A stretch of DNA of 64,000 bases from Hyphomicrobiales bacterium. Its GTDB lineage: Bacteria; Pseudomonadota; Alphaproteobacteria; Rhizobiales; Beijerinckiaceae. Numbering within the stretch: position 1 is the first letter of the stretch; the number at the start of each line of letters is the position of its first letter. Positions 25,392 through 43,688 of this stretch are shown piece by piece. The notes beneath the pieces are model-generated. The model was given only the letters and a program-made list of their open reading frames with translations. It made no database searches and was not told where the DNA came from. A program made the position numbers and the translations under genes. Location of the stretch: positions 310,001 to 374,000 of the forward strand of contig CAKNFP010000002.1 in NCBI GenBank assembly GCA_930633525.1. Direction: 5' to 3'.

Positions 25392-25434
25392 AGGGTTCCC
25401 TTATGCCGGACGCAGTGTTGCCAGGAATGCTGGA

Positions 25435-25454
25435 TGCCGGGTTGCCCCCCGGCA
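25435..25454 (-). terminator. stem-loop between binding protein and permease genes
   Basis: TGCCGGG (25435-25441) pairs with CCCGGCA (25448-25454). It lies in the 133-base gap after the binding-protein gene. Such hairpins often keep the binding-protein message more abundant than that of the permeases. There is no T tract. Confidence 0.5.
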
Positions 25455-25524
25455 ATCCGATTGTAATGTTCCCACGATCTGTCGCAGAACGACCGGAGAA
25501 GGACGGCAGATCGGCGCCGATGCG

Positions 25525-26811: not shown

Positions 26812-27139
26812 GGCGATCTCCCTTGTTGGCGGTAGCCCGCTTGCTGCGGGCTTTCATGTCGCACTGATCATTGTTACGCAAATTTTCCTGTCAACGAAAA
26901 GTTGCGCAAATTTCTATTTTGTGCTGATCTCGGATTGGGCATTTGCGCATCCGATCAGCCGTCGACCATAGACTGCGCTTCAAAAACGTGACGATGGACA
27001 AGGGCGGCTGATGGGATTGCGAAATTACGCAAATTTGCGTTGGCTGTCCAACCCAGCGTTGGTGGCTGCCTGAGCATCTTCAAAGCCAGTGGAGTGCCGC
27101 ACTTCGGTGAGCTCTCCCGAGAGGACCAGGGACGGAAAC
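26812..27139. promoter_or_regulatory. divergent control region with repeated LacI-type sites
   Basis: No gene is seen in these ~330 bases. Sites related to TTTGCGYAA are TTACGCAAA (26874-26882), TTGCGCAAA (26902-26910), TTTGCGCAT (26942-26950), TTACGCAAA (27025-27033) and TTTGCGTTG (27034-27042). The last two abut, giving the perfect palindrome ACGCAAATTTGCGT at 27027-27040. Similar words precede the LacI gene at 22440, the obvious candidate regulator. A hairpin (AGCCCGC at 26834-26840, GCGGGCT at 26846-26852) lies in the leader of the binding-protein gene. Confidence 0.68.
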
Positions 27140-28147: not shown

Positions 28148-28156
28148 CGAAACGAC

Positions 28157-28996
28157 ATGCCAGTCCCTCCCTATACCAAGCCTCCCTATCCCATGCCCAC
28201 CTATGTCACGGCCTTTTCCTCTCTTGGCTGCCCGGAGCTGGAGATCGATGCCGCTGCCGCGCTGGCAAGGCGATGCGGGATCGGGATGATCGAGTTGCGT
28301 GCGCTCGGCGGCGGGATCGATCTGCCGGCCTATTTCTCGGCGCGCTTCGCGACGTTCGGAAGGTTGCGCGCCGCGGCGGCGGAATTTGGCGTTCCCGTTG
28401 CCGCGCTGGGCACCTCCCTGCGGTTGATCGGCAATAGCGAGAGCGATCGCGTCGACTTCCTAAGGTATATCCCCTGGGCGCAAGCCCTAGGGGCGCCATA
28501 CCTGCGTGTATTCGATGGCGGACTGGCTGGAGATCAAGACGAGCTTGAGCTGGCCGGCGATACTCTTGCCTGGTGGCATGCGGAAAGTGCCGCGCTCGAT
28601 CCGCCGGTCGACATCATCGTCGAAACGCATGACAGCCTTGCTCGACCAGCCGCGCTCGAGGCGTTCGTCGCGCGGTATCCCCGCTGCAAGCTCCTGTGGG
28701 ATACCCATCACACTTGGAGAAAGAGCGGAGAGTCCCCCTCCCGCACCTGGGAACGCATGGGTGAGGCCGTGGTCCACATGCACGTGAAGGACAGCGTCGC
28801 CGCACCGGGTACGCGCCATGGCTACCGCTATGTGCCGCTCGGCGAAGGTGAATTTCCCTTGTCGGATCTCCGCGGCGTCCTCCAGCATTCGCGGTTCTCG
28901 GGCGTTGTCAGCCTGGAGTGGGAGCGCCTGTGGCACCCCGCGCTCTCCCCCCTGGAAACTGTGCTGCCAGCCTTCCGTTCGTTCCTCGCAGCCTGA
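28157..28996 (+). CDS. sugar phosphate isomerase/epimerase-like TIM barrel
   Basis: The protein of about 279 residues has the xylose-isomerase-like TIM barrel ligands in order: Glu in DIIVETHDSL, Asp in KLLWDTHHTW, His in VVHMHVKDS and Glu in GVVSLEWERLW. It therefore has an intact divalent-metal site and should isomerise or epimerise a sugar or keto sugar. It starts nine bases after the unknown gene. The start could be ATG 28157 or ATG 28193 (MPTYVTAFSS), the latter closer to family N-termini. Confidence 0.85.
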   Translation: MPVPPYTKPPYPMPTYVTAFSSLGCPELEIDAAAALARRCGIGMIELRALGGGIDLPAYFSARFATFGRLRAAAAEFGVPVAALGTSLRLIGNSESDRVDFLRYIPWAQALGAPYLRVFDGGLAGDQDELELAGDTLAWWHAESAALDPPVDIIVETHDSLARPAALEAFVARYPRCKLLWDTHHTWRKSGESPSRTWERMGEAVVHMHVKDSVAAPGTRHGYRYVPLGEGEFPLSDLRGVLQHSRFSGVVSLEWERLWHPALSPLETVLPAFRSFLAA

Positions 28997-29128
28997 TCGG
29001 GAGGCCGCTGGCATTCCATTCGGGCACTATGACGTAACCGCTTCATCCTGTGGAAGACAGACATGCCGCGCCAATGGGCGGACGTCCAATCCCATCCCCT
29101 TACTCCTTGCATCAAAAGCGACAGGTCC

Positions 29129-30154
29129 ATGCATCGCCCCATCGCCGTCCGACCGACTCTCGCCTTTGCCTTCGACCCGGAGCGATATGCGGGTGCGCTC
29201 GACAGCCGGGATCTAGCGCGGCTCGCGGCCATTGCCGATATCCTTGATGACGAGCCGATGCAGACCTATCACGACGCGCGCGCCGCGAGGCTGCTCGCCG
29301 ACGCCGATATTCTGGTGACCGGCTGGAGGGCGCCTCTGCTGGACAGGGCTGCGCTGGAGATGGCCCCGCGCCTCAAGCTTGTCGGCCATCTTGCCGCGAC
29401 GGTGAAGCAATTTCTCTCGGAGGACGTCTGGCATCGGGGGATAAGCGTCACGGCAGCCGTCAATGCGGTCGCTCTGCCTGTCGTCGAGTTCACGCTGGCA
29501 TCGATCATCTTCGCCGCGAAACGCGCCTTTGCTCAGTCACAACAGTATCGGCAGCATCGCGAGATCAGCTATGGCGGCCGTGTGACGCATGATTGCGGGC
29601 TGCTGGGCAAGACCATTGGCATCCTCGGCGCATCACGCGTCGGCCTGCGCGTCATCGAGCGCTTGCAGGACTACGACATGGACGTTCTCGTCTATGATCC
29701 ATTCCTGGCGCGCGAGCACGCCATCGCCCTCGGCGCGGAGAAGGTGGACAACCTGGATGATATGATCGGACGTTGCGATATTCTGTCCGTTCATGCGCCA
29801 ATCACCGATGAGACTATCAATATACTCGATGCGCGGCGCCTCGCTTTGCTCCAGAACGGTGCTACGCTGATCAATACCGCAAGGGGCGTGTTGATTGATC
29901 ATACCGCACTCGTGCAGGAACTCATCTCCGGCCGCATTTCGGCGAGCCTCGATGTCACGTACCCCGAGCCGCTACCGTCGGATTCGCCGTTGTTCGATCT
30001 CCCCAATGTCTTCCTGACGCCCCATATCGCGGGGCCGCAAGGGAGCGAGCGCAGGCGCATGCTGACCGCCATCATCAACGATATCGAGCGCTACGTCGCC
30101 GGCAAGCCACTGCTCGGCGACGTAGCGAGGACGTCGCTGGCTCGTATCGGATGA
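29129..30154 (+). CDS. D-2-hydroxyacid dehydrogenase family protein
   Basis: The protein of about 341 residues has the NAD-binding motif LGKTIGILGASRVGLRVIER near residue 170 (G-x-S-x-x-G variant). Catalytic Arg lies in TLINTARGVLID, Glu in DVTYPEPLPSDSPL and His in FLTPHIAGPQG. It would oxidise or reduce a 2-hydroxy acid or related sugar acid with NAD(P). ATG 29129 is preferred to the upstream ATG 29063. It closes the plus-strand operon and has a counterpart at 30198-31238 on the other strand, convergent with it. Confidence 0.87.
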   Translation: MHRPIAVRPTLAFAFDPERYAGALDSRDLARLAAIADILDDEPMQTYHDARAARLLADADILVTGWRAPLLDRAALEMAPRLKLVGHLAATVKQFLSEDVWHRGISVTAAVNAVALPVVEFTLASIIFAAKRAFAQSQQYRQHREISYGGRVTHDCGLLGKTIGILGASRVGLRVIERLQDYDMDVLVYDPFLAREHAIALGAEKVDNLDDMIGRCDILSVHAPITDETINILDARRLALLQNGATLINTARGVLIDHTALVQELISGRISASLDVTYPEPLPSDSPLFDLPNVFLTPHIAGPQGSERRRMLTAIINDIERYVAGKPLLGDVARTSLARIG

Positions 30155-30197: not shown

Positions 30198-31238
30198 TCA
30201 GGCCATGCGGTCGTAGTTCGCGGCGGTGATTTCATGCCGCAGCGGCTCGCCACGCATGAACCGCTCGACCTCCGCAACGATGAGATCGCCTTGCCGCCAG
30301 TGTCCGTCCTGCGTGTGCCCCGCCGCATGGGGCGACAGGTGCACATGGCCTCCGAGATCGCGGAACGGGCTCGCCATGGGCAGCGGCTCGACATTGAACA
30401 CGTCAAGCACCGCGCGGATACGGCCGCCGCGCAATTCCGCCAGCAGCGCCCCCTCGTCAACCAGCGGCGATCGCGCCATGTTAACGAGGAGCGCGCCATC
30501 CTTCAGCCGCGCCAGTTCGGCCGCCCCAAACATGCCGGTGGTTTCGGGCAGGAGAGGCGCGTGCAATGAGACCACGTCGCTTTGCGCGATCAACGCATCG
30601 AGCGATACCAGTTCGACGCCGAGTTCGCGCGCGGCTTCGTCGCTCATGACCGGATCGGTGACGAGGATCCGCGCGCCAAACGGGCGGATGAGCCGCATGA
30701 CGGATCGACCGACGTAGCCACCGCCCACGATACCGACGGTGAGCGCGCCAAGGAGCCGGCCGGGATACCGGCTCCGCATCTCCCAGCCCGCGCCCGCTTT
30801 CAATCCGCTGTCGAAGGCGTCTCCATGGCGAAGCGCCATCAGGATCTGGGCCAATGTGAACTCGGCGACGGAATCCCCGATGGCCGCCGCCGCATGCGTG
30901 ACGCGCAACCCGTCCGCCACGGCTGCCGCCGGCACGAGGCGGCGGATGCTGCCCGCGCAATGCGCAACCAGTCCCAACTGATCGCAGGCGGAGAGATAGG
31001 GCTCAAGCGGCGGCGTTCCCCAACCGGTGATGCAGACCGCCGCCCCCTCCAGCAGTTGCGCCATGAGCGGCTCGGTCAGTGACGTCTCATCGGTCATCCG
31101 CACCCGCGCGAAACCCCGCAGTTTCTCCTCCGCTGCCTGGCTGAGAACCAGGCTGCGGGCCTCTGGCGGAAGGAGGATCGTGACGAGGGGGTGGTTGCTG
31201 GCTGCATTGCTCGCGGATGTGTGGATGGCAAAGCTCAT
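30198..31238 (-). CDS. D-2-hydroxyacid dehydrogenase family protein (second copy)
   Basis: The 346-residue protein has GIVGGGYVGRSVMRLIRPFG as the dinucleotide-binding loop, Arg in LLVNMARSPLVDE, Glu in DVFNVEPLPMASPF and His in HLSPHAAGHTQDG. It is the last gene of the long minus-strand operon that includes the iduronidase-like GH39 and probably performs the oxidation step of that pathway. It is clearly related to the protein at 29129-30154 but not a recent duplicate, since only motif regions are alike. Confidence 0.87.
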   Translation of the reverse strand: MSFAIHTSASNAASNHPLVTILLPPEARSLVLSQAAEEKLRGFARVRMTDETSLTEPLMAQLLEGAAVCITGWGTPPLEPYLSACDQLGLVAHCAGSIRRLVPAAAVADGLRVTHAAAAIGDSVAEFTLAQILMALRHGDAFDSGLKAGAGWEMRSRYPGRLLGALTVGIVGGGYVGRSVMRLIRPFGARILVTDPVMSDEAARELGVELVSLDALIAQSDVVSLHAPLLPETTGMFGAAELARLKDGALLVNMARSPLVDEGALLAELRGGRIRAVLDVFNVEPLPMASPFRDLGGHVHLSPHAAGHTQDGHWRQGDLIVAEVERFMRGEPLRHEITAANYDRMA

Positions 31239-31273
31239 GATAAGGTCCCGCCTGTCATAAGAAGGATCGGATA

Positions 31274-32101
31274 CTACTTGGCCAAACGGCGTGCGACGAA
31301 ACCATGGTCGGCACGGCTGATGTCTATGAGCTGCGGGTAGGGCAGGCGATAGTGGCTCTGCTGGGAGAGCACGCCCTCGAAGCCGGTTGCCTTGAGGTGG
31401 TCGATGATATCATGCCAAGGCACCATGCCGTCGGAGAGCGGCATCCAGTCCGCATGCCAACGGCGCTGCCCCTCCGCATCGATCTCACCGGCAAACCAGC
31501 CACCGTTCTTCGCCCCGACAACCGAGAGCCACGGCGCGAGAGCGTCGAAGGTGAGTTGCCAGTGTTCGCGCCCTTCCTGAACGGCCTGATTGCCGGGATC
31601 GACAAAGGCCGTCATGAACCGGGGATCGCAGCCATCGAGCAGGGCCAGCATCTGGGCGCTCGAACTGTGAATGGTGCCACCATGCATCTGCAAGGCCAGA
31701 CGGACGCCCGCGCGCTCGGCGACGCGAGCGAGCGCCGCCAACTGACGCCGCCCGCGGTCGCGGATGGCCGCATAGCCCTGGGCGGGATCGTAGCGCCAAT
31801 AGCCGATCCGCAGGAGCTCGATGCCGGAGGCCGCGCAATGGTGGAGGATGGCGGGCGTCGCCGGATCTTCCGCCTCCGTGATATCGGTCGTCGCCATGGC
31901 AACGGACAGGCCTTGATCGCGCAATGTCCGAACCAGCCCCCCCAGGGTGCCAATAGTGGCTGGCGCCACATGCCATCCATCCCGCATGAGCAGGTCTATC
32001 GCGCCGAAGCCAAGATCCCGGATGGTCGCGGCCATCGCAGCGACGGGCACATCACGAAATGGCTTGGTGAAGAATGCGTGTTGCATAGGTTCAAGCCTCA
32101 T
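31274..32101 (-). CDS. TIM-barrel sugar isomerase/epimerase-like protein, altered metal site
   Basis: The 275-residue protein has the IolE/IolI-like barrel layout (IRDLGFGAIDLLMRDGWHV, GIELLRIGYWRYD, FMTAFVDPGNQA). Where the family normally has a metal-binding Glu it reads RLALQMHGGTI, and the last strand reads GVLSQQSHYRLP instead of a Glu-containing strand, so two usual ligands are replaced. It may use a different mechanism or not be an isomerase. Its ATG overlaps the GH39 stop as ATGA, which supports start 32101 and tight coupling. Confidence 0.75.
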   Translation of the reverse strand: MRLEPMQHAFFTKPFRDVPVAAMAATIRDLGFGAIDLLMRDGWHVAPATIGTLGGLVRTLRDQGLSVAMATTDITEAEDPATPAILHHCAASGIELLRIGYWRYDPAQGYAAIRDRGRRQLAALARVAERAGVRLALQMHGGTIHSSSAQMLALLDGCDPRFMTAFVDPGNQAVQEGREHWQLTFDALAPWLSVVGAKNGGWFAGEIDAEGQRRWHADWMPLSDGMVPWHDIIDHLKATGFEGVLSQQSHYRLPYPQLIDISRADHGFVARRLAK

Positions 32102-33954
32102 CAGGCGGCGGAGGGTGCAGCGGCGATGCCAGGGACAGCCGGCGACGGGGGGCTCACCCGCCCGAAGGCATCGCGCGCCTGGACCTTGTAGAAGCCGGCT
32201 TGCTGACCGACGGTGTGCAGATAGACAGTCGACAACAGGGCGGCCGTATTGACGACGCGATAAGGTCCATCCTCGCTCGCACTCCAGAGAACGTCGAACA
32301 GCTCGAGACGATCCGACCCGGCGGACTGCCAGAACAGCACGTTGTTCACCGCGCCGTTGAGGCCCACGTAGGGCGTGAGCTTGAGGTCCTGCGGCGCGCC
32401 GGGGCTCTCGTCCTCGCGACGGACGAGCACCGCGAGCGCGACGCCCGGAAGGGCTATATCCAGCTTGATCGTTGCTTGCTGGCTCGCGGCGGACACGTGG
32501 ATCTGCTCGATGGTAAGCGCCGGCTCCTGAGCCGCGCGCATGGCGGTGAGCGCTTCCACGCCCGGCTTGTCGAGATCGTCAAGCGTCTCCCAGACCGAAT
32601 AGGGATCGCCCCGGCCTTCCTCGATACGGAACAGCGCCAGGGCGTGAGCGCCCGGTGCCACGTTGTCGAAGGTGAGGCGAACGGAACGCTCGCCGGAACG
32701 TCGGAAGGAATCGACGCTGTTATAGAGCAGGATCGCAGGATCGCCTGAGGAAAGCCTTGTGGATATTGCGCCGAGACCATCTCGGTCCGGATCGAGCGGA
32801 TCTCCTCCGACAGGCAGGCTCTCCTCGCCAAGCCAGGCCAGCAACTCCATCACCGAAAGCGCCGGCTTCTTGATGAGTTCGAAGGGCTCCGGTTCTACGA
32901 TGCGCTTTTCAAGGGCACCGATGTCCGTGAGGTGTTCGCTCTGCGCTGCCTTGATGTCCTTGTCGCCGAAATAGGCGAGGTGCGTGCGGTTGCCCCAGCG
33001 GCCCAGGAAGCCGTTGTCGTTGCTAAGCACGGGATAGTCCACCCCCTCGGCGTCGATGAGGAGGCGCTGATGCTGATCGATGATCTTCGCCGCGAGCCCG
33101 GCGAAATAGGGTAGCCCGTGCCACGTATGGTGAATGTGCCACCCGATCTGGGGATCGCACTCGTTATTGATGAAAGGGAGTTGGGCGAAGCGGGGATGAT
33201 GCTGCCTGATATAATCGACGGCCACCATCTCGTGCTGGCAGATGGCAAGCGAGTTCGGCGTGAGATCCTCGGCGTGTTTGCGCGCGCCCTTCTCATGCAC
33301 CGAGATGAAATCGAGGCGCACACCGCTCTCTCCGGTGAAGAAATTCTCGCCAGTGTCACAATGGGCCAGAAAAGACTTGAAGATCGGCGGGATGCGCCGG
33401 GCGACACCGGGGCCGCCGAGCGTGATGTCCGGGTCCACGGCGCGCAGACCCTCATGACAGGCGTCGTAGTAGTTGTTGAATCCAGTCTCGCCGCCGAGTT
33501 TCCACCAGATATCGGGCTCGTTCCAGGTCTCGAAATACCAACTGCGCAGTTCCTCCGCGCCAAAACGCGTGCTGTAGCGCTGCGCGAGCTCAGCCATGAA
33601 GTCGCGCCAGTGGTGGACCTGATCATGCTCATTGAGATCCGTGAAAAGATAGGACGGATTCCCCATGAGCTCGAAAAACGGCTTGAGGCGATATGCGAGG
33701 ATGACATCAAGCGCCCGGTCGAGCCGTGACCAGTCATACCGGCCGAAGCGTTCAGCCGTGACGAGGTCGAGCATGTAATGCACGCGCAGATACTCGATAC
33801 CACGGCGCGGAACACCACCGACATAGGCCAGCGTCTGCTGCATTTCCGGCTCAAGCAGGAGTTCGGCCGGGGAGAAGCCCGTGGACCGCCAGAACCGGCG
33901 GAAAGCTGTGCCCTCACCCCTGAGATCAACACGGATATCTGTGGTACCGGACAT
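32101..33954 (-). CDS. alpha-L-iduronidase-like glycoside hydrolase, family 39
   Basis: The protein of about 617 residues has a GH39 TIM barrel followed by a C-terminal beta/fibronectin-like domain. The acid/base is Glu146 in WYFETWNEPD and the nucleophile Glu265 in LPFINNECDPQIGW. NNYYDACHEGLRA, ENFFTGESGVRLDFISVHEK and KIIDQHQRLL closely resemble human lysosomal IDUA (NYYDACSEGLRA, NFFTGEAGVRLDYISLHRK, KVIAQHQNLL) and less so bacterial beta-xylosidases. It lacks a signal peptide, so it acts in the cytoplasm on imported sugars, presumably removing a terminal L-iduronate or similar uronate. ATG 33954 has GAGAGA upstream; TTG 33969 is possible. Confidence 0.85.
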   Translation of the reverse strand: MSGTTDIRVDLRGEGTAFRRFWRSTGFSPAELLLEPEMQQTLAYVGGVPRRGIEYLRVHYMLDLVTAERFGRYDWSRLDRALDVILAYRLKPFFELMGNPSYLFTDLNEHDQVHHWRDFMAELAQRYSTRFGAEELRSWYFETWNEPDIWWKLGGETGFNNYYDACHEGLRAVDPDITLGGPGVARRIPPIFKSFLAHCDTGENFFTGESGVRLDFISVHEKGARKHAEDLTPNSLAICQHEMVAVDYIRQHHPRFAQLPFINNECDPQIGWHIHHTWHGLPYFAGLAAKIIDQHQRLLIDAEGVDYPVLSNDNGFLGRWGNRTHLAYFGDKDIKAAQSEHLTDIGALEKRIVEPEPFELIKKPALSVMELLAWLGEESLPVGGDPLDPDRDGLGAISTRLSSGDPAILLYNSVDSFRRSGERSVRLTFDNVAPGAHALALFRIEEGRGDPYSVWETLDDLDKPGVEALTAMRAAQEPALTIEQIHVSAASQQATIKLDIALPGVALAVLVRREDESPGAPQDLKLTPYVGLNGAVNNVLFWQSAGSDRLELFDVLWSASEDGPYRVVNTAALLSTVYLHTVGQQAGFYKVQARDAFGRVSPPSPAVPGIAAAPSAA

Positions 33955-34061
33955 GTCGAAGTCTCTCAATCATCTGTGGTCATTCGGGATCGTCGCGTTC
34001 GCAATCTCGTGCGGGACGACGCCTGAAGCTTCAGAGCGCAGGACCAAAGCGCTTGTGCCTG

Positions 34062-34895
34062 CTACTTGAATTTATCCCGCATGGCCTGGATGCCCGGGAT
34101 CGTCTCCGTGAGGTGGAGATGCACGGGGTCGAAATATTGCACCAGTCCTCGATGCGATTTTCCGACCAGTATCGTGAAGATGTAGGATCGATGACCAGGT
34201 GATGTGACGGTGGGATGATAGCCGCTATCAACGAGGACTGTGTCGCGATCGCGCGTCATAAAGCAGGTTTCCTTCTGGCCGTCATAGGTTACCTGCACGC
34301 CGAAGCCTGAAGGCGGAAGAAAGCGATAGTGATAGAGCTCCTGATGATCGGTCTCGCCCTCGCTGCGATCGGTATCGTGCTTGTGGGGTGGGTAGCCCGA
34401 CCAGCAGCCGTCATCCGCATAGAGCTCACTGACGAGGAGATGGCCGGTGCGGCCGTGGCCGTTCTGACCCAGGATATGCAGAATACGCCGCCGGCTATGG
34501 GTTCCCGGCGATCCCACCTCCACGGTCTCCACCTCATCGGGCCGAATGCGGAAGGCGCTATGGCGTTCGGCGGTCAATCCACCGGCGATCGCGACCTCGA
34601 TGGGCTCGGCCAGCGCGTCGATCGTCACGTTGGCGCCGAGAGGCGCGTAGACGGAATCGGCAACGCCTGACCAGACGTCAGCGCGGCCGCCGACCGCGGC
34701 GAAACGCTCGCCCTCGACAAGGATGTCGGCCCTGCCCGACATCAGGACGATGACGCATTCATGGCGCGGCAGCCGCAACTCGAACGTCTCGCCTGGGAGA
34801 AGCCGGATACAGTTGAAGTAGACACGATCAAGCACGGCATCCTCGACGAGGATTGCGCGATCGGCAGTGTCGTGTTGGCGAATGAGCTTAGGCAT
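34062..34895 (-). CDS. 5-deoxy-glucuronate isomerase family protein (IolB-like)
   Basis: This 277-residue bicupin protein fits IolB in length and motifs: HECVIVLMSGRADILVEG, then SGYPPHKHDTDR with metal-type histidines, then ELYHYRFLPPSGFGVQVTY and SGYHPTVTSPGHRSYIFTIL. IolB isomerises 5-deoxyglucuronate in inositol breakdown, and the related KduI acts on 4-deoxy-5-ketouronate. No other inositol genes are present, so here it more likely isomerises a uronate released by the GH39 enzyme. The ATG at 34895 overlaps the end of the ATPase gene by eight bases; the extra N-terminal open frame is rejected. Confidence 0.8.
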   Translation of the reverse strand: MPKLIRQHDTADRAILVEDAVLDRVYFNCIRLLPGETFELRLPRHECVIVLMSGRADILVEGERFAAVGGRADVWSGVADSVYAPLGANVTIDALAEPIEVAIAGGLTAERHSAFRIRPDEVETVEVGSPGTHSRRRILHILGQNGHGRTGHLLVSELYADDGCWSGYPPHKHDTDRSEGETDHQELYHYRFLPPSGFGVQVTYDGQKETCFMTRDRDTVLVDSGYHPTVTSPGHRSYIFTILVGKSHRGLVQYFDPVHLHLTETIPGIQAMRDKFK

Positions 34896-35988
34896 GTTGA
34901 ACCTCTGGGCTTGAGCCCATATCCACGCCTTGCAACACAAGATCCTCGGCGTGATGACAAGCAACGGTGCGGCCTTCGACCCTGCGCAGGGGCGGGGTCT
35001 CCGCCTTGCAGCGCTCTGTCGCGAAGCGGCATCTCGGATGGAAGCTGCAACCGGCCGGGCGATTGGCGGGATCGGCTACCTCTCCCGGCAAGTGAATGCG
35101 ACGCCCGCGGCGCTTGAAGGCCGGGTCCGGAACCGGCAGGGCAGAAAGAAGCGCCTCGGTATAGGGGTGCATCGGACGCGCGAAGAGTTCAGCTGAACTC
35201 GCGATCTCCACGATCTGGCCGACATACATCACCACGACGCGGTCGCAGATATACTCGATGACACTGAGATCATGGCTGACGAACAGGTAGGTCAGCCCGA
35301 ATTCCTGCTGCAGATCCTTCAGGAGATTAAGTGTCTGCGCACGGACACTGACATCGAGCGCCGAAACCGCCTCGTCGAGTATGACGAGGCGTGGATTGGT
35401 CGCCAAGGCGCGGGCGATGCCGACGCGTTGCCGCTCTCCGCCGGAAAAGGCATGCGGATAGCGCCGCGCATATTCCGGCCTGAGCCCCACACGCTGCAAC
35501 AGTTCGCGGACCCTCCCCTCGATTTCGGAGCGCGGCAGAAGACGATTGACCTTGAGCACCTCGCCGACAATGTCGATGACAGGCAGGCGCGGATTGAGGG
35601 AGGCCTGCGGATCCTGAAAAACGATCCTGAGGTCAGTGCAATAGGCAAGCCGCTCGTTCTCGCTCAAGGCCGTCAGGTCGATCATTCGACCGTCGCGATC
35701 GCGATAGCGGATCGTGCCGGACGAAACCTCGTGAATGCCGAGGATGCAGCGGGTGACCGTGGACTTTCCGCACCCGGATTCCCCGACGACCCCGAGCGTC
35801 TCGCCGGCCATGATATCAAAGGACACGCCGTCGACAGCCCGCACAGGCCGGCCCTTGCCCCGTCCGAAAAGGGTCGCGCGGGGCGCGAACACCTTGGCGA
35901 CATCGCGCAATTCCAGCAGGGTCTGCGTGCCCGCCGCACCGGCAACTGCTTCACCGGCTAGTCCTTCAGCGGCTGGTGCTTCAACCAT
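34888..35988 (-). CDS. ABC transporter ATP-binding protein, OppF/DppF type
   Basis: The 366-residue ATPase has Walker A GESGCGKSTVTRC, the ABC signature FSGGERQRVGIARALA and Walker B RLVILDEAVSALD. The C-terminal oligopeptide-type extension includes CSFHPRCRFATERC. It overlaps the upstream OppD-type gene by eight bases. It energises the importer formed by the binding protein and permeases of this operon and might also serve the ATPase-less importer at 9-12.5 kb. Confidence 0.92.
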   Translation of the reverse strand: MVEAPAAEGLAGEAVAGAAGTQTLLELRDVAKVFAPRATLFGRGKGRPVRAVDGVSFDIMAGETLGVVGESGCGKSTVTRCILGIHEVSSGTIRYRDRDGRMIDLTALSENERLAYCTDLRIVFQDPQASLNPRLPVIDIVGEVLKVNRLLPRSEIEGRVRELLQRVGLRPEYARRYPHAFSGGERQRVGIARALATNPRLVILDEAVSALDVSVRAQTLNLLKDLQQEFGLTYLFVSHDLSVIEYICDRVVVMYVGQIVEIASSAELFARPMHPYTEALLSALPVPDPAFKRRGRRIHLPGEVADPANRPAGCSFHPRCRFATERCKAETPPLRRVEGRTVACHHAEDLVLQGVDMGSSPEVQHA

Positions 35989-37108
35989 GGCGAAGGGTCC
36001 TCTGTGCGTGTCCCGCGGGGATCTGCGTCACGCGCGATGCGGGGCGAATGGCCTCCGGCAACACGCAACGGACAGATCGGCTGCCGCCAAGCGCCACGTC
36101 CTGCGGAACCGAAACGTCACAGGTGCCGGCGATTGCAAAATCACACCGGGGGTGGAAATCGCAGCCCTTCGGCCTGTCGAACGGAGAGGGTACCATCCCA
36201 CGTATCGCCGCCAGCCGCGTATCACGCCCGGAGCCCAGTCGCGGCACGGATTTGAGCAGAGCGCGTGTATAGGGATGACGTGGATCGTAGAAAATCTCTT
36301 CCACGCTGCCACGCTCGACCACCTTGCCGAGATACATGACGATGACTTCACTCGCGACCTCCGCCACGACACCCAGGTCATGCGTGATGAACAGGATCGA
36401 CAGGCCGGACTCTTCCTGCAACTCGACAAGCAGATCGATGATATTGGCCTGTGTGGTGACATCCAGCGCCGTGGTCGGCTCGTCGGCGATTACCAGTTTC
36501 GGCCGGCAGGAGAGGGCGAGCGCGATGCACACTCTCTGGCGCATGCCACCCGAGAATTCGAAGGGATAGCTGCCAAGCCGCTCGGCCGGTTTCGGGATTC
36601 CAACGCGCGCCAGCATGGCGGCGGCCCGCTCGGTGGCTTCCCGGCGCCCAAGATTGAGATGGCGGCGAATGACGGGCACCATCTGTTGACCGATGGTATG
36701 GACGGGAGAGAGCGCCGCCATCGGCTCCTGCGAGATGAAGGACACGTCCTTCCCGCGCAAGGCGCGGATGGGCTTGCCGCGCGGGTCGAGCTTGCCGATG
36801 TCGATCGTCCGCCCCGGCTCGGGATGATAAAGCACGCGGCCATCGACGATGCGCGCCGTATGCGGAAGCAGGTTCATCAGCGAACGGCCCGTGATGCTCT
36901 TGCCGGAACCGGATTCACCCACGATGCAAACGGTTTTCCCGCGGGGAATGCCGAACGTGACACCGTCGACCGCACGAACGAGCCCGTCGTCCGTCGCGAA
37001 ATGCACCTTGAGGTTCTCGACCTCGAAGAGCAGATCTTGCGGTTCGGTCGCCGGTCGCGTGGCGCGTGGCTGGCTCGCGCCCGCATCAGGAATAGGGGTC
37101 AGCCGCAT
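35981..37108 (-). CDS. ABC transporter ATP-binding protein, OppD/DppD type
   Basis: The ATPase of about 375 residues shows Walker [15 protein letters not shown]-loop [19 protein letters not shown], signature [16 protein letters not shown], Walker [13 protein letters not shown] and the C-terminal [15 protein letters not shown]. The open frame continues upstream to 37216 inside the permease gene, but ATG 37108 ([10 protein letters not shown]) gives the expected N-terminus and a 23-base overlap with the permease. ATG 37120 is an alternative. Confidence 0.92.
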
Positions 37109-38216
37109 CACGGATCCCATCTCCAAGGAAATTGAGGGCAAGGACGGCGACGACAACCGGGATGCCGGGCAGGAACAGCCAGGGCGCCTGGGTGAGCGCG
37201 AGCAGGCTCTGCGCATCCTTCAAGAGGACACCCCAACTCACCACGGGCGGCTTCAGGCCGATGCCGAGGAAGGACAGCGCGGTCTCAGCAAGGATCATCG
37301 CCGGAATTGCGAGCGTCACCGAGGCGACGATATGACTGGTGAAGGACGGCACCATGTGATGCCAGATCACGCGCTGTCGGCTGCAGCCGTCCAAGCGCGC
37401 CGCCATCACGAAATCCTCCGTCTTCAGGGAGAGGAAACGGCCGCGCACAACACGCGCCAGATCCGTCCAACCGATCAAGGACAGGATCACCGTGATCCAG
37501 AAATAAACGAGAAGCGGGTCCATCCGATCCGGAATGGCGGCCGCAAGTCCCATCCACAACGGAATGGTGGGGATCGACTTGAGGAAGTCGATGGTCCTCT
37601 GCACCGCCTGATCCGCCCAGCCGCCGTAATAGCCCGAGATGCCACCGAGCAGAATGCCGAGGACGAGGCTGATCGTGACGCCGACAAGGCCGATCGACAT
37701 CGATATGCGCGTGCCGTGGATGGTTCGGCTCAGAAGGTCCCGCCCCAGGCGATCCGTGCCCCACAGATACATCGGCGCGTTGGGATCCACCGGGCCGATC
37801 AGATGGCGCTCGGCCGGGATCAGGCCGAACAGGTGATAGGGCTCACCCTTCACAAAAAAGCCGACGGGATAAACGCGGCTCTCATCGATGACGAAGCGAC
37901 GCTGGAGCGCCACGGGATCGAGCTCGACCTTGTATCCGTTCACGTAAAGCAGCGCGAGATCGCCATTTTGATCGCGACCGAACATCTTGAGCACTTGCGG
38001 CGGTGAATAGATGTAACGCGGGTTGTAACGATCCGAGGAATAGGGCGCCACGAATTCCGCAAACAGCGCCACCGCATAGATCGCGAGGACGATGAACCCG
38101 CTCCAGTAAGCGAGCTTATGCTTGCGAAAACGCCGATAGATAAGGCCCCATTGGCCGAGCTCGACGAGCTTTCGGCGTGGCGGTGACAGGCCACCGGCGG
38201 CAGTCGCGTCGGTCAT
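37086..38216 (-). CDS. ABC transporter permease, DppC type with large periplasmic insert
   Basis: The 376-residue permease is longer than usual (~300) because about 90 residues between the first helix and YLWGTDRLGRDLLSRTIHGT form a periplasmic segment (YIYSPPQVLKMFGRDQNGDL to HLIGPVDPNAPM). This longer form is typical of DppC-like permeases in sugar-type peptide-family importers. Its coupling loop is DFVMAARLDGCSRQRVIWHH. It overlaps the following ATPase gene. Confidence 0.9.
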   Translation of the reverse strand: MTDATAAGGLSPPRRKLVELGQWGLIYRRFRKHKLAYWSGFIVLAIYAVALFAEFVAPYSSDRYNPRYIYSPPQVLKMFGRDQNGDLALLYVNGYKVELDPVALQRRFVIDESRVYPVGFFVKGEPYHLFGLIPAERHLIGPVDPNAPMYLWGTDRLGRDLLSRTIHGTRISMSIGLVGVTISLVLGILLGGISGYYGGWADQAVQRTIDFLKSIPTIPLWMGLAAAIPDRMDPLLVYFWITVILSLIGWTDLARVVRGRFLSLKTEDFVMAARLDGCSRQRVIWHHMVPSFTSHIVASVTLAIPAMILAETALSFLGIGLKPPVVSWGVLLKDAQSLLALTQAPWLFLPGIPVVVAVLALNFLGDGIRDAADPYS

Positions 38217-38226
38217 TGCGAAGACC

Positions 38227-39219
38227 TCACTGATAGCGCACGCGCGGGTCGAGCCAGGCGAGCAGCAGATCCGACAACAGTGTGCCGATGACTGTCAGGG
38301 CCGACAGGATGAGAATGAAGCTGCCCGCCAGGTACATATCCTGCGCGAGCAGCGCGCTGAGAAGGAGCGGGCCGGCGGTGGGCAGGCTCAGCACGACGGA
38401 TACGATCACCGCCCCGGAGAACAGATGCGGCAGCACCCATCCGATCGTCGAAACGAAAGGATTGAGCGCGACACGCACGGGATACTTGAACAACAGCTCC
38501 ATTTCACCGAGGCCGTTGGCACGGGCCGTCTGCACATAGGGCTTGTGCAATTCGTCGATCAGATTGGCGCGCATGACGCGGATCAGCGCCGCCGTGCCGG
38601 ACGTCGACAGGATCAGCACCGGCAACCACAGATGCGCCGCGAGGTCGACAAGCTTGGCCCAACTCCACGGCGCATTGACATAGGCTGGCGAGAACAGTCC
38701 GCCGACACTCATGCCGGCGTAGCGCGACAGGACATACATGAGCGCCAGGGACAGGAGAAAACTAGGGATCGCAAGGCCGATGAATCCCAGGAAAGTCACG
38801 ACATAGTCGAGCACCGAATAGCGCCGGACCGCGCTGTAGATACCAATCGGCAAGGCCAACATCCAGGTCACGACAAGCGTGACGAGCGACAGGAGAAGGG
38901 TCATCCCCATGCGGTCCCAAAGCAACTCGGAAACCGGCTTGTTCCATTCAAAGGATTGACCGAAGTCACCATGCAGCAGGATGCCGGTTATCCAGCGCCA
39001 ATACTGGATGTACCAGGGCTGATCCAGCCCATAGCGGGCTTTGAGCCCGGCAAGCGATGCGCTGTCGAGGTCTCCGCCCTGTTCCGCCATCTTGCCCGCA
39101 AGCGACGTCAGAAAGTCGCCCGGCGGCAGCTGGATGATGAGGAACGACACCACCGAGACGGCAGCCAGTGTCAGTGCCGTATAGACGACGCGTTGTGCAA
39201 TGAAGCGCCACATGATCAC
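38227..39219 (-). CDS. ABC transporter permease, DppB type
   Basis: The 330-residue permease begins WRFIAQRVVYTALTLAAVSV and then LIIQLPPGDFLTSL. It contains YVQTARANGLGEMELLFKY as the coupling loop and ends LLLAWLDPRVRYQ. It lies ten bases upstream of the next permease start. Together they form the channel of the family 5 importer in the iduronidase operon. Confidence 0.91.
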   Translation of the reverse strand: MIMWRFIAQRVVYTALTLAAVSVVSFLIIQLPPGDFLTSLAGKMAEQGGDLDSASLAGLKARYGLDQPWYIQYWRWITGILLHGDFGQSFEWNKPVSELLWDRMGMTLLLSLVTLVVTWMLALPIGIYSAVRRYSVLDYVVTFLGFIGLAIPSFLLSLALMYVLSRYAGMSVGGLFSPAYVNAPWSWAKLVDLAAHLWLPVLILSTSGTAALIRVMRANLIDELHKPYVQTARANGLGEMELLFKYPVRVALNPFVSTIGWVLPHLFSGAVIVSVVLSLPTAGPLLLSALLAQDMYLAGSFILILSALTVIGTLLSDLLLAWLDPRVRYQ

Positions 39220-39307
39220 TCCTTCGCCGCAACGTCCACGGCGCAGCCTCGCGATCGCTTCCCAAATCCGCTGACCCGATGTCAGGGACAGCTATTTGGT
39301 GTTGGGT

Positions 39308-39336
39308 GGGAGGCGCGCTTGTTGAGCGCGCCTCCC
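39308..39336 (-). terminator. 12-bp stem-loop after the large binding-protein gene
   Basis: GGGAGGCGCGCT (39308-39319) pairs perfectly with AGCGCGCCTCCC (39325-39336) around a five-base loop, just after the stop of the binding-protein gene and about 90 bases before the permease. With no T tract it likely attenuates read-through or protects the binding-protein message. Confidence 0.65.
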
Positions 39337-39342
39337 CGTGCC

Positions 39343-41286
39343 TTATTTCATGAAGTATTGCTCAGGGTTTGTCGGCCCTGGCGTCACATAGAAGGCCGTG
39401 TCGGGCATGATCTCCGGAACGTTGTGAAAATTAGTCTTCACGACGCCGTAGTTGTCGGGATCCATATCCGTGCCAATGACCGGAAATTCCTCGCCGGTGA
39501 TCGCCAGGATCTGCCGCATCAGCGCGAGTTTGCCTTCATCGCTGACGGTTCTCAAGAGTTCGGTATAGAGATCCTGCTGCTTCTTGGCCCAGGCCGGCGG
39601 TTCCTCGGCGTTCGGATCCTTCGGATTCTGGTAGTAGATGCCCCAGGCCGAGCCAAAGGCTGACTGGTTCTCGTAGGGAAAATACCATTTCGGATCAAGA
39701 AGCCCGAGGAAATCATAGCCACCACCGCCGATCCACACGAGGCCTTCCTGATCGTTGGCCAACATGCGCGCCACGGCGAATGACGATTCAATCGGCTTGG
39801 GCTGCATATCGACACCCACGGCTTTCCAATACTTGCGGATAAGCTCGAGAGCGTCGATATGATCTTTACGCGCGGTCTGAACGTCGATGGAGAACGCAAT
39901 GCGTTTGCCGTCAGGGCCAATGCGATAACCCTGGTCGTCACGCTTGGTGAAGCCTGAGCGATCGATCGTCTCGTTCGCGGCTTTTACATCGAACTTCGTA
40001 TATTGGGTGGCGAGTTTTTCGTCATAGAGAGCCGTTCCGGGCCGCGGCACAGCCTGGTAGGGTCGCGACTGTCCCGCGTAGAGAATATCGTTGATCTCAT
40101 CGCGGTTGATCGCCAGCGACAATCCGATGCGGAAGTCCTTGTTCTGGAAAACTTGCCGCAGAACCGGATTCTTGACGGTCTGGTTGAGGCAGATGAGCAT
40201 GCCATTCGACCAGGCCGGCTGCACCTTGAACAGCTTGTAGCCGCCCTGCTCGCGATGCGCCGCCAGAACCATGCCCGTTTCCAGGGAGTTAAGCCGCTGC
40301 GCCTGCATGTCGAGGCCGCCATTGGTGGCCTTCAGAATGACGGATTGCACATCGCCCATGACGTCGTAGGTTACGCGATCAATATAGGGCAACTGCTTCC
40401 CGTCGGGATCGACCTTGAAATAGTAGGGATTGCGCTCCGCAACGACCTGCGTGGTGCCGGTATAGGGCACCGTCAGCTTCCATGGATCAAGCACGGGACG
40501 CGCCGCATCCCGCCAACGGTCCGGCGACTGCCAATTGCCAACCTTGGTCTGGATCAGCGCAACCCAGCTCGGAGCCCCAGCCGCCTTCGCCAATTGATCG
40601 ACGTCCGGGTTATAGGCCTTGTGAAACTTCTTGAGATACTGGGCCGGAGACCCTGCCAAGATATCCGAGCCGATATTGCTTGCAAGGTAGTAGAGAAGCA
40701 TACCGTTCGGGGCTTTGAAGCTAAACTGAACAGTGGAATCGTCCACTTTCGAGACGACCACCGGGTCATTACCCGATCTCAACCAGCGGGGTACAGCCGG
40801 CGTAATCTCCTTGTTCATCAAGATGTCGTTGTACCAGAACAGGATGTCGTCAGCGGTAAACGGTGTCCCATCGGACCACTTGACACCTTTGCGAAGCTTG
40901 AACGTATAGACGGTCCCGTCGCCGTTGACCGAATAGCTCTCGGCGACATCCGGCACGACCCCGGTCCACTGCGGGTCCCAGCGCACAAGACGCGTATAGC
41001 CTATCGTGCGCTCCAGCAGGCCGTCGGAGGCACCCACAAGGGCCTGCCGCCACGTGCCGCCATAGCTGCCGATGGAATTCACGGGCTTGACGACGAGCGG
41101 ATTCTCCGGAAGACGCTGTGCGACAGGCGGAAGCTTGCCTGCCGCGACCTCCTTGGCGAGGCTTGGTGCTTCTTTGTAGTCCGCGCCCAGTGCTGCGCGC
41201 GTCGTCAGGTCCGAGATTCCAAGAACACCGCAGCCGATGGACAGGTACAATATCGCGCGTCCGAGCGCGCGTTGGCTCGTCAACAT
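39343..41286 (-). CDS. ABC transporter substrate-binding protein, family 5, long (oligosaccharide-type)
   Basis: The 647-residue protein starts with a signal sequence (AILYLSIGCGVLGISDLTTR, cleavage near ALGA-DY) and has the family 5 core: VAESYSVNGDGTVYTFKLRK, GVKWSDGTPFTADDILFWYN and later NPYYFKVDPDGKQLPYID. It is about 100 residues longer than DppA; long family 5 proteins with LacI regulators and glycosidases usually carry oligosaccharides (compare the alpha-galactoside system of Sinorhizobium). It is first in the operon and faces a LacI gene, with operators between them. Confidence 0.9.
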   Translation of the reverse strand: MLTSQRALGRAILYLSIGCGVLGISDLTTRAALGADYKEAPSLAKEVAAGKLPPVAQRLPENPLVVKPVNSIGSYGGTWRQALVGASDGLLERTIGYTRLVRWDPQWTGVVPDVAESYSVNGDGTVYTFKLRKGVKWSDGTPFTADDILFWYNDILMNKEITPAVPRWLRSGNDPVVVSKVDDSTVQFSFKAPNGMLLYYLASNIGSDILAGSPAQYLKKFHKAYNPDVDQLAKAAGAPSWVALIQTKVGNWQSPDRWRDAARPVLDPWKLTVPYTGTTQVVAERNPYYFKVDPDGKQLPYIDRVTYDVMGDVQSVILKATNGGLDMQAQRLNSLETGMVLAAHREQGGYKLFKVQPAWSNGMLICLNQTVKNPVLRQVFQNKDFRIGLSLAINRDEINDILYAGQSRPYQAVPRPGTALYDEKLATQYTKFDVKAANETIDRSGFTKRDDQGYRIGPDGKRIAFSIDVQTARKDHIDALELIRKYWKAVGVDMQPKPIESSFAVARMLANDQEGLVWIGGGGYDFLGLLDPKWYFPYENQSAFGSAWGIYYQNPKDPNAEEPPAWAKKQQDLYTELLRTVSDEGKLALMRQILAITGEEFPVIGTDMDPDNYGVVKTNFHNVPEIMPDTAFYVTPGPTNPEQYFMK

Positions 41287-41335
41287 GAGCGACCCTCCCT
41301 ATGCGCCTTCTCGATCGATGTCGGGGCGTTGAATC

Positions 41336-41353
41336 TACGTTATCGTTATCGTT
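41336..41353. promoter_or_regulatory. LacI-family operator at the binding-protein promoter
   Basis: TACGTTATCGTTATCGTT centres on CG at 41344-41345. The right half GTTATCGTT is the exact complement of the left half AACGATAAC of the operator at 41476-41493; the left half matches at 6 of 9. It lies 50 bases upstream of the binding-protein start, where it could repress the 11-kb operon. Confidence 0.65.
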
Positions 41354-41475
41354 CCAATATCGTCAAGAACCGGATTTGAATTTTTCGTACGTGCAACGGA
41401 ATCGATGGATAGGGCGATATCTCTGTGCTAACAAACGGCTAGAGACTTTGAGTGATCTTGTTGCGATCGACCGGG

Positions 41476-41493
41476 AACGATAACGCTATCGTT
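41476..41493. promoter_or_regulatory. LacI-family operator at the regulator's own promoter
   Basis: AACGATAACGCTATCGTT has perfect 7-bp arms (AACGATA/TATCGTT) and a central CG at 41484-41485. It ends eight bases before the LacI start codon, suggesting autorepression. Confidence 0.72.
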
Positions 41494-41501
41494 AAATTGT
41501 G

Positions 41502-42569
41502 ATGGATACCAAGAGCCCAACGCGGTCGCCCGCGAAATCCGCTGAAGCTGCCACGGAGCAACTGACCGGACGGCCAGTGACGATCACCGACGTCGCATCT
41601 GCCGCCGGCGTCTCGCCGATGACGGTTTCACGGGTTCTCAACAGCAGGGGCGGCGCGAGCGCCGAGACCCGCGCCCGTGTTCTGGAGATCGCGGGGGCGC
41701 TGAACTATCGGCCGAACAGCTTCGCCAAGAATTTGCGTATCGATCGCTCAAAGGTCGTGGGCATCGTCGTTCCGGATATCGCCAATCCGTTCTTCCCGGA
41801 AATCATCCGCGGCGCGGAACTTGCAGCGCGGCCTGCGGGTTACACCCTGCTGACGTCCAATGTCGTCGAGGACCCGGCACGGGAAGAAGAGGTCATCGGC
41901 ACGCTTCTCGAGCGCCGTGTCGATGGCATCATTCTCTGCAGTGCGCGCCTCGAGGAGAAGCGTCTCCTCCGCGCGATCGAGGGGCACCGCGCCGTGGTCC
42001 TCATCAACAGGGTCTTGCCACGACGAATTGCCGGCACGATCGAGATTGATTATGCCTCCGGCGTCGAAACCTTGGTCGAAAAGCTGATCGCCCAGGGGCG
42101 CCGCCGGTTCGCATTCGCCTCCGGGCTCTCGACATCCTACGGCGGCCAGAAGCGCCGTGGCGGCCTCAATCGCGCGCTCGCCAGGCACGACCTCGCGCTC
42201 GTGACAGAGGTTTCGAGCTCCCCGGACCTCGCCGGCGGCACAGAGATCGGCCAGGCCCTGTTGCCCTATCGCGGCGCGATCGACGCGCTGATCTGCTACA
42301 ATGATCTTATCGCGATCGGCGCGATGTCCGTGATGAAGGAAAAAGGCATCACCGTGCCTGAAGAGATTGCGGTGACGGGCTGTGACGACATCCCGGTGGC
42401 AGCGCTTGTGTCTCCGGCGCTCACGACCTTGCGTGTCGCCAAGCAGGATCTGGGCGAGCTGGCGATGCGTATGCTCCTCGACAGGATCGAAGGGCGCAAC
42501 ACCCAGCATGGCATCCTGATCGAGCCGGATCTGATCGCTCGTCAGACGACCGATTTTCCCTTTCCGTAG
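41502..42569 (+). CDS. LacI-family transcriptional regulator (iduronidase operon)
   Basis: The regulator of about 355 residues has the HTH VTITDVASAAGVSPMTVSRV near residues 28-47, the hinge ALNYRPNSFAKNLR and an effector domain with VVGIVVPDIANPFFPEIIRG and AVTGCDDIPVAALVSPALTT. It is divergent from the binding-protein gene of the iduronidase operon, with palindromic CG-centred sites at both promoters. GTG 41499 directly precedes the ATG used here. The inducer is probably a sugar from that pathway. Confidence 0.9.
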   Translation: MDTKSPTRSPAKSAEAATEQLTGRPVTITDVASAAGVSPMTVSRVLNSRGGASAETRARVLEIAGALNYRPNSFAKNLRIDRSKVVGIVVPDIANPFFPEIIRGAELAARPAGYTLLTSNVVEDPAREEEVIGTLLERRVDGIILCSARLEEKRLLRAIEGHRAVVLINRVLPRRIAGTIEIDYASGVETLVEKLIAQGRRRFAFASGLSTSYGGQKRRGGLNRALARHDLALVTEVSSSPDLAGGTEIGQALLPYRGAIDALICYNDLIAIGAMSVMKEKGITVPEEIAVTGCDDIPVAALVSPALTTLRVAKQDLGELAMRMLLDRIEGRNTQHGILIEPDLIARQTTDFPFP

Positions 42570-42716: not shown

Positions 42717-43688
42717 ATGATCCTCGACCGTCGTTCAGCTCTGAAGTTTCTAGGACTGTCGTCCGCGTCGGCAGCCCTCGCTGGCGCCCTGAAGGCGGAG
42801 GGGCTCCAGGCCGCACCCAGACCGTCGGCGAGCTTACCGTTTGCGCTCACCACGCCGGTGCATGTCGAGGAAGCGGCGTTGCGCGTCCGCAACCTTGATA
42901 TCATGGTTCAGTATTATCGCGATGTGCTGGGCTTGCGCGAAATCCGGAGGACAGAAGACGGGGTCGTTCTGGGTGCAGGCAACCAGGCGTTGCTCCGTCT
43001 CGTCCACCGTCCTGACGCTACCCAGGAAAGCCAGAGGTCCGCGGGGCTCTTCCACATCGCATACCTGATGCCATCGCGGGAGGATCTTGCCCGCTGGCTG
43101 GTCCATGCGGCTATGCAGCGCGTCTATATCGATGGTTTTGCCGACCACAATGTCAGTGAGGCGATCTATCTCACCGATCCGGAAGGAAACGGCATTGAGG
43201 TGTATTCCGATCGGCCCCGCGACCGTTGGACATGGCAAGAGAACCTGGTGACGATGGGTACCGAGCCCCTTGATATCGATGATATCCTGCGGTTGGCGGA
43301 TACCACGCGCGACACTTACCTCGGCGCGCCTCACTCACTTCGGATCGGGCATGTCCACCTGCGTGTTGGCGAGATCGCCAAAGCGCGGGCCTTCTACCAA
43401 GATCGGCTGGGGCTTGCGTCGACCCGGGGAGACCGGCCGAATGCTGCATTCCTCGCGTCGGGCGGCTACCACCACCACATTGCCGTCAATACCTGGAACA
43501 GCGAGGGCGCGCCTGTGCGCGATTCGCGGGATACAGGCCTGGACTGGTTTTCTCTACGTGTCACGGAGACGAGCCTTCACGCGGAACAGAGACGGCGCCT
43601 TGCCGAGAGTGGCGTTGTGCAAGCCGTCGATGGGGGCTTCGAGGCCACTGATCCCTGGGGCACAAGAGTGAGGCTGCTCGCGAGCTAG
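42717..43688 (+). CDS. VOC-family dioxygenase-like protein with Tat signal
   Basis: The 323-residue protein begins MILDRRSALKFLGLSSASAA, a twin-arginine motif followed by a hydrophobic stretch, so export in folded form is likely. The rest is a two-module VOC protein like the one at 18769: GLFHIAYLMPSREDLARW, EGNGIEVYSDRP, IGHVHLRVGEIAKARAFY and GYHHHIAVNTWNSEG, with the same metal-ligand histidines and glutamate. It may act on quinol- or catechol-like compounds in the periplasm. It stands alone 147 bases after the LacI gene. Confidence 0.82.
   Translation: MILDRRSALKFLGLSSASAALAGALKAEGLQAAPRPSASLPFALTTPVHVEEAALRVRNLDIMVQYYRDVLGLREIRRTEDGVVLGAGNQALLRLVHRPDATQESQRSAGLFHIAYLMPSREDLARWLVHAAMQRVYIDGFADHNVSEAIYLTDPEGNGIEVYSDRPRDRWTWQENLVTMGTEPLDIDDILRLADTTRDTYLGAPHSLRIGHVHLRVGEIAKARAFYQDRLGLASTRGDRPNAAFLASGGYHHHIAVNTWNSEGAPVRDSRDTGLDWFSLRVTETSLHAEQRRRLAESGVVQAVDGGFEATDPWGTRVRLLAS

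Follow-up and report, generated by a model that had tools for sequence, protein, structure and literature searches.

The stretch of DNA analysed here, referred to as the window, comprised 64,000 nt of contig CAKNFP010000002.1 of the 7.16-Mb genome GCA_930633525.1, and the locus under study occupied its positions 30198-42569. This locus consisted of a nine-gene operon on the minus strand and a divergent gene on the plus strand encoding a LacI-family regulator. In the order of transcription, the operon encoded a family 5 solute-binding protein (SBP), two permeases and two ATPases of an Opp-type ATP-binding cassette (ABC) importer, a protein of the KduI/IolB family, a protein of glycoside hydrolase family 39 (GH39), a TIM-barrel protein and a 2-hydroxyacid dehydrogenase (2HADH) (Table 1). 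All of these genes and the divergent regulator lay where an earlier interpretation made from the letters of the window (the sequence-only reading) had placed them, and the importer components that it had described as a complete family 5 system, namely the SBP, both permeases and both ATPases, were present.

Table 1. Features of the locus, their coordinates in the window and the basis of their assignment.
Feature	Position	Strand	Basis
LacI-family regulator	41499-42569	+	Pfam LacI and Peripla_BP_3; adjoins the operon in 17/17 distinct loci with enough flank
LacI-type operator-like site ACGATAGCGTTATCGT, candidate	41477-41492		near-palindrome
Second operator-like site ACGATAACGATAACGT, candidate	41337-41352		near-palindrome; 140 bp from the first
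Family 5 solute-binding protein (SBP_bac_5)	39343-41286	-	PF00496; N-terminus hydrophobic, signal-like
ABC permease 1	38227-39219	-	order and 66-99% identity conserved; Rhizobium product names
ABC permease 2	37086-38216	-	conserved order; Rhizobium annotation
ABC ATPase 1	35981-37216	-	conserved order; Rhizobium annotation
ABC ATPase 2	34888-35988	-	conserved order; Rhizobium annotation
IolB/KduI-family isomerase	34062-34964	-	PF04962, 2.3e-66, 224 bits (cutoff 23.9)
GH39 α-L-iduronidase orthologue, predicted cytoplasmic	32101-33954	-	PF01229, 6.5e-65, 220 bits (cutoff 26)
Xylose-isomerase-like TIM barrel (AP_endonuc_2), accessory	31274-32101	-	PF01261, 7.6e-15
D-isomer-specific 2HADH, accessory	30198-31238	-	PF02826, 1.5e-45

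When the GH39 protein was compared with the PDB by phmmer, structure 5NDX was matched at 6.8e-182 and human α-L-iduronidase (IDUA) at about 1e-86, and the solved β-xylosidases were matched at 1.6e-23 or weaker. The protein was 47% identical to 5NDX and 37% identical to human IDUA (full-length match), and these values argue that its likeness to IDUA is not due to chance. In a tree of 32 rows, it was placed in a clade of 20 rows with 100/100 support that also held human IDUA, 5NDX and the remaining operon-encoded proteins. Outside this clade fell 11 GH39-like outgroup rows, of which one was annotated as a β-xylosidase (L042), ten were unannotated and none was a characterised member. A Haladaptatus protein was sister to the clade, and the program issued long-branch warnings that included human IDUA. 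The grouping with β-xylosidases that the sequence-only reading had set against its own iduronidase-like assignment was thus not observed.

Ten catalytic or iduronate-contact positions of human IDUA (H91, N181, E182, H262, K264, E299, G305, W306, D349 and R363 in human numbering) were all kept in the GH39 protein of the window, and they were identical in the 18 full-length operon proteins compared, a count that left out L007, L009, L031/L040 (same genome as L002) and a decayed copy in genome G798. We took E182 as the acid/base residue and H262 as an active-site position. The contacts with iduronate inhibitors (N181, K264, G305, W306, D349 and R363) were taken from the accessible part of PMC6343074, and H91 as a ligand-contact position from that of PMC10794756. 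R363 and G305 were missing in all 11 outgroup rows, K264 was kept in five of them and D349 in three; the Haladaptatus row kept eight of nine covered positions, with alanine in place of G305. All three peptides quoted in the sequence-only reading were present in the protein, but they did not lie around both catalytic glutamates as had been supposed: LPFINNECDPQIGW surrounds the nucleophile (human E299), the peptide beginning ENFFTGESG leads to H262 and K264, and E182 sits in YFETWNEPD, which had not been quoted. On these comparisons, the GH39 protein is an α-L-iduronidase orthologue.

The enzyme type itself is not new, because 5NDX is described, in the accessible part of PMC10794756, as the orthologue of human IDUA from Rhizobium with 4-methylumbelliferyl (4MU) α-L-iduronide bound. 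The crystallised form carries glutamine at the acid/base position, where the Rhizobium relatives have glutamate, which suggests an engineered variant trapping its substrate. No paper on the operon or the biology of the 5NDX protein was found in the open-access PMC literature searched.

Over its first 45 residues, the GH39 protein reached a best 11-residue hydropathy of 0.75, compared with 2.20 for the SBP. By this simple count, used in place of a signal-peptide predictor, no strongly hydrophobic stretch was detected, in agreement with the earlier statement that the enzyme lacks a signal peptide.

The order of an eight-gene core (LacI, SBP, two permeases, two ATPases, IolB-like protein and GH39) was kept in all 17 distinct loci with enough flank, the window excluded. 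Three of these loci came from the window genus, six were Bosea-like, two Inquilinus-like and five of Rhizobium type, and one belonged to another genus of the family. Two loci on short contigs (L009 and L012/L036) kept the core order in their visible part. The TIM-barrel and 2HADH genes, which the sequence-only reading had counted with the operon, were indeed present, but they followed GH39 in only 8 of the 16 loci covering that stretch, those of the window genus and of Rhizobium type; in L008, only 0.6 kb of sequence followed GH39. Judged by this distribution, both proteins are accessory to the core. Orthologues in the Rhizobium-type operons were 42-47% identical for the TIM-barrel protein, which had no PDB match at E 0.01, and 49-53% identical for the 2HADH.

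The GH39 operon was found in all four listed genomes of the genus and in one other genus when the family was searched (99 genomes), and in the window genome and one relative at the level of the order (199 genomes). The class search (385 genomes) returned the window genome only, with three weak other GH39-like matches, and the phylum search (398 genomes) returned the window genome, one intact copy and the decayed copy of G798, with seven weak other matches. Rhizobium accounted for 88 of the 89 plasmid records matched, and four Rhizobium plasmid regions were examined for gene annotation. The distribution of the operon is patchy. In the decayed copy (L037, G798:C55:190000-201042, about 6900-9000), remnants of the binding-protein and GH39 genes adjoin a different importer, likewise of Opp type, and an importer resembling it was seen near a partial isomerase relative in L047. 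A record titled Mycobacterium sp. KBS0706 (L010, NZ_VCCH02000002.1) encoded operon proteins 91-98% identical to those of Inquilinus limosus (L008), and its Mycobacterium label looks wrong.

The gap between the LacI and SBP genes contained the two candidate operators. Their motif was derived from palindromes within such gaps, and its presence there is thus partly circular. When the whole genome was scanned with at most one mismatch, the motif occurred at two places only, both in this gap, and the motif read backwards as a control gave one match. In the window, the four strand-matches all fell at the two sites and nowhere else, with 0.09 expected. The motif was found in the gap of 17 of the 18 scanned loci that have it (window counted), including loci of Bosea, Inquilinus and Rhizobium; L035 was the sole exception at the setting used, and two further matches lay outside the gap (L039 and L043). 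Because the motif was confined to its gap genome-wide and common across genera, the LacI protein most likely controls the GH39 operon alone. Co-regulation of the convergent cluster at 27089-30154 by the same protein was considered and rejected, as the motif was not found there.

The protein encoded next to GH39 belonged to the family that the sequence-only reading had named when it proposed an IolB/KduI-like uronate isomerase (PF04962). It was closer, however, to IolB of S. meliloti (31% identity) than to E. coli KduI (22%). Among NCBIfam models, only the IolB model (TIGR04378) matched, at 165.5 bits and thus below the equivalog cutoff of 205. The HKHD / E / YHP pattern aligned with the IolB rows (H-x-H ... 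E ... H kept), and the HKH..E..H residues are presumably metal ligands. Since the isomerase tree was weakly resolved (two of 12 starred branches and a very long KduI branch), only identities were used. The open reading frame opens at 34964, and the true start is probably at 34895 (MPKLIR), where the orthologues begin. A canonical IolB was encoded separately in an iolC-D-E-B locus of the same genome, and the isomerase, which is encoded with GH39 and not with the iol genes, is by this comparison a second IolB paralogue. The separate iol locus disfavours an inositol role for it, a role kept open by a relative from Limimaricola. The isomerase and GH39 genes were adjacent or one gene apart in 19 of 19 loci with both intact, the window excluded.

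In the myo-inositol pathway, IolB converts 5-deoxyglucuronate to 2-deoxy-5-keto-D-gluconate, an aldose-to-ketose step whose product is the 2-deoxy analogue of 5-keto-D-gluconate. The likeness to IolB points to an aldose-ketose isomerisation of L-iduronate and not to the KduI deoxyuronate step. The KduI/IolB superfamily can act on aldohexuronates, since KduI is reported to facilitate the conversion of glucuronate and galacturonate (accessible part of PMC3578941).

The products expected from such a step were derived for five hexuronates by aldose-ketose bookkeeping, worked by hand before the NCBIfam matches of the reductases described next were seen. Only L-iduronate and L-guluronate gave 5-keto-D-gluconate; D-glucuronate and D-mannuronate gave fructuronate, and D-galacturonate gave tagaturonate. 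In the Inquilinus-type loci (L008, L009 and L010), a gene for a short-chain dehydrogenase/reductase (SDR) was located between the isomerase and GH39 genes, and in genome G134 (L012) an SDR gene directly followed GH39. These proteins were more similar to E. coli IdnO than to KduD (53 versus 37% identity for L008 and 49 versus 38% for L012). The L008 protein had seven leading PDB relatives at 247-271 bits, with the next at 175; gluconate (5-)dehydrogenase was the name of three of the seven, and a fourth was listed as a putative hexonate dehydrogenase.

The best PDB match of the SBP was SPH1118 of Sphingomonas sp. A1 (465 bits), which binds oligogalacturonates (accessible part of PMC9314435). Arg57, which holds a carboxylate in SPH1118 according to that source, was kept in all 16 operon binding proteins compared, whereas 5ipw, which follows SPH1118 among the PDB relatives, has serine there. 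The position of Arg496 was lysine in all 16, Arg438 was kept in 11 and missing in the five of Rhizobium type, and Arg466 and Glu505 were kept only in those five. This pattern fits an acidic sugar other than pectin but is not proof of one.

From the gene content and order, the orthology, the active-site residues and the conserved operator-like sites, we infer the substrate, the isomerase reaction, the reduction step and the repression as follows. The family 5 binding protein and ABC importer would carry an acidic oligosaccharide with α-L-iduronate at its non-reducing end across the inner membrane, and in the cytoplasm the GH39 enzyme would free L-iduronate by a retaining two-glutamate mechanism. 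The IolB-like enzyme would convert this aldose to the 2-ketose, which is 5-keto-D-gluconate when numbered from the acid end. An IdnO-type SDR, encoded within the operon in the Inquilinus-type loci and G134, would then reduce it to D-gluconate; in the window genome, this reduction may be performed by SDR homologues encoded elsewhere. The LacI protein would repress the operon via the two operators until ligand is present. The sequence-only reading had suggested a cytoplasmic route for uronate-containing oligosaccharides, and such a route remains the natural reading because the IDUA-type GH39 enzyme has no evident signal peptide and the importer-isomerase operon is conserved, with its own regulator and operator-like sites. 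That the locus is a locally regulated operon leading from iduronoside import through L-iduronate and 5-keto-D-gluconate to D-gluconate is, in our judgement, moderately probable.

Several observations weigh against the iduronate pathway. The window operon contains no SDR gene, and the three SDR homologues found elsewhere in the genome (52-55% identity), being among 72 SDR matches, are unspecific evidence. Among the seven leading PDB matches of the L008 SDR, the remaining three bear other names, and another gluconate 5-dehydrogenase appeared only at 170 bits. The L008 protein scored below the NCBIfam gluconate 5-dehydrogenase cutoffs (321.4 versus 369 and 320.8 versus 408), as did that of L012 (282.2 versus 408 for the IdnO model and 234.8 versus 369), whose best match was an unnamed SDR subfamily. 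The Limimaricola isomerase relative (45% identity) has no GH39 gene beside it and sits within an inositol operon, and the isomerase clade may therefore be no more than IolB. In Phyllobacterium (L047), where a close relative was found in part (59% identity over residues 115-300), the 18.6 kb covered contain no GH39 gene. In the binding protein, most of the SPH1118 ligand residues were not kept, and N53, E216, N324, D483 and W594 were changed in all 16 operon proteins. An abundant source of iduronate in soil was not established in the literature found.

The neighbours of the Rhizobium-type operons also count against it. An α-L-fucosidase was encoded in all four Rhizobium regions examined, adjoining the regulator in loci of this type, an α-L-rhamnosidase lay nearby in two of the four records, and L035 contained a distant α-L-fucosidase (33%). 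Such neighbours would also fit plant glycans bearing β-glucuronate. The main rival substrate is a β-D-glucuronide, for example from glucuronate-capped plant arabinogalactan, with GH39 as a cytoplasmic β-glucuronidase and the isomerase converting D-glucuronate to D-fructuronate. D-Glucuronate is far commoner than iduronate in plant matter, α-L-iduronate and β-D-glucuronate differ at C5 only, and the action of KduI on glucuronate noted above would be in keeping with such a step. Set against this are the ten IDUA residues kept in the GH39 protein, including the G305-W306 carboxylate loop, the 4MU-iduronide described for the crystallised Rhizobium orthologue, and the resemblance of the SDR of two lineages to the 5-keto-D-gluconate reductase IdnO, where D-glucuronate would yield fructuronate. 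We consider this alternative rather unlikely.

Scavenging of glycosaminoglycans, in which the ligands would be dermatan or heparan fragments from animals, was considered on the ground that human IDUA acts on these polymers and that the genome encodes one heparinase II/III-family protein. That gene is on another contig, as is the only GH88-type match of the genome, which is weak. No sulfatase, lyase, hexosaminidase or GH88 protein was annotated in the four Rhizobium regions or recognised by Pfam among 23 flanking open reading frames from eight other loci, four of which had no match and beyond which many flanking frames lay outside the test. The Rhizobium hosts, moreover, come from root nodules. 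With no supporting gene recognised in the tested flanks, the assignment as a glycosaminoglycan utilisation locus was rejected, and only a slim chance is left to this explanation.

Because KduI and IolB share a Pfam family, the isomerase might instead be a KduI-type enzyme for 4-deoxy-5-ketouronates, with GH39 incidental to a lyase-based pathway. This is very improbable in view of the identities and the NCBIfam match to IolB, the constant proximity of the two genes and the fact that no polysaccharide lyase was recognised in the regions and frames just described. Most characterised bacterial GH39 enzymes are β-xylosidases, but a β-xylosidase or α-L-arabinopyranosidase-like enzyme resembling IDUA by chance is hardly credible given the phmmer scores, the active-site residues and the tree, which held no characterised xylosidase.

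Other genes near the Rhizobium-type operons were also recorded. An L-arabinonate dehydratase and an aldolase of RraA type are additionally encoded in one of the four Rhizobium records. A 473-aa protein closes the Rhizobium operon (L013, 17731-19152, with equivalents in L014, L015, L034 and L043); it was annotated as mandelate racemase in three of four records and had no Pfam match and only a weak match to DgcA racemase. In R. johnstonii 3841 (L043), the α-L-fucosidase at 311-1648 corresponds to pRL100274 by gene counting from pRL100286, and by the same counting GH39 would be pRL100282 and the isomerase pRL100281. pRL100274 is fucA, reported to be needed for attachment to roots at low pH (accessible part of PMC11406972), and pRL100286-287 are named in those of PMC4136779 and PMC7769827; in the accessible parts of the PMC papers found by gene tag for this strain, only such neighbours of the operon are named. 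In one Bosea locus (L003, 12231-14851), the GH39 operon is followed by genes for a RuBisCO-like protein and for a kinase of DUF1537 type (SBD_N/NBD_C).

In the window, a convergent three-gene cluster (27089-28147 on the plus strand, 28157-28996 and 29063-30154) encodes, in this order, a 337-aa protein that had no match in Pfam and no credible one in the PDB, a further TIM-barrel protein and another 2-hydroxyacid dehydrogenase (37% identical to the operon 2HADH). It was conserved in the genus loci compared, and among 299 genomes searched in the phylum, eight from a single other genus gave weak partial matches (26-37% identity). The cluster is adjoined by a further ABC importer of sugar type, made up of SBP_bac_1 and two permeases (23608-26811, minus strand), and the LacI operator motif was not found there. 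On the other side, a two-domain VOC protein of the glyoxalase/dioxygenase fold (42717-43688, plus strand) directly follows LacI; it was also present beside LacI in one locus of the same genus (L038) and not in the other loci compared.

L-Iduronate is a main sugar of dermatan and heparan, and also of ulvan. According to the accessible part of a 2019 review, the microbial reactions of L-iduronate catabolism are not clear (PMC6353982), and neither a bacterial iduronate route nor this operon was found described in the open-access PMC literature searched. As far as that search reaches, the operon and the predicted step from L-iduronate to 5-keto-D-gluconate are undescribed. It is a tentative proposal, though one we take seriously, that this is the first dedicated bacterial L-iduronate pathway, with a new L-iduronate isomerase of the IolB/KduI superfamily that joins the known gluconate route via an IdnO-type reductase. 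If true, it would specify an enzyme, an intermediate and an operon carried by named bacteria that can be obtained, would explain why rhizobia and their relatives encode orthologues of an enzyme known from human lysosomal disease, and would provide cytoplasmic IDUA relatives for biochemical work. The conserved, locally regulated gene set itself was found in some soil and plant-associated bacteria.

The proposed system resembles several known ones in part. Compared with SPH1118, the binding protein is 42% identical and keeps the carboxylate-binding Arg57, but most other ligand residues are changed in the operon proteins, and a different acidic ligand is therefore likely. With IolB, the isomerase shares the fold family and the presumed metal-binding residues; it differs in its modest identity, in its score below the equivalog cutoff and in the coexistence of a canonical IolB in the genome. 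The proposed 5-keto-D-gluconate intermediate and the IdnO-type reductase of the Inquilinus-type and G134 loci recall the idn operon of E. coli, where entry is from L-idonate via IdnD and not from L-iduronate via an isomerase. The GH39 enzyme falls in one clade with 5NDX of Rhizobium leguminosarum bv. trifolii, whose relatives in L043 and L015 (96% identity each) are encoded in the same type of operon; their acid/base motif is TNEAD, whereas that of the window enzyme and human IDUA is WNEPD. Human IDUA, the enzyme missing in Hurler disease, is lysosomal and takes part in sequential glycosaminoglycan breakdown. The window enzyme shares its catalytic and iduronate-contact residues but, unlike human IDUA, shows no signal sequence by the hydropathy count and is encoded in an operon with its own importer.

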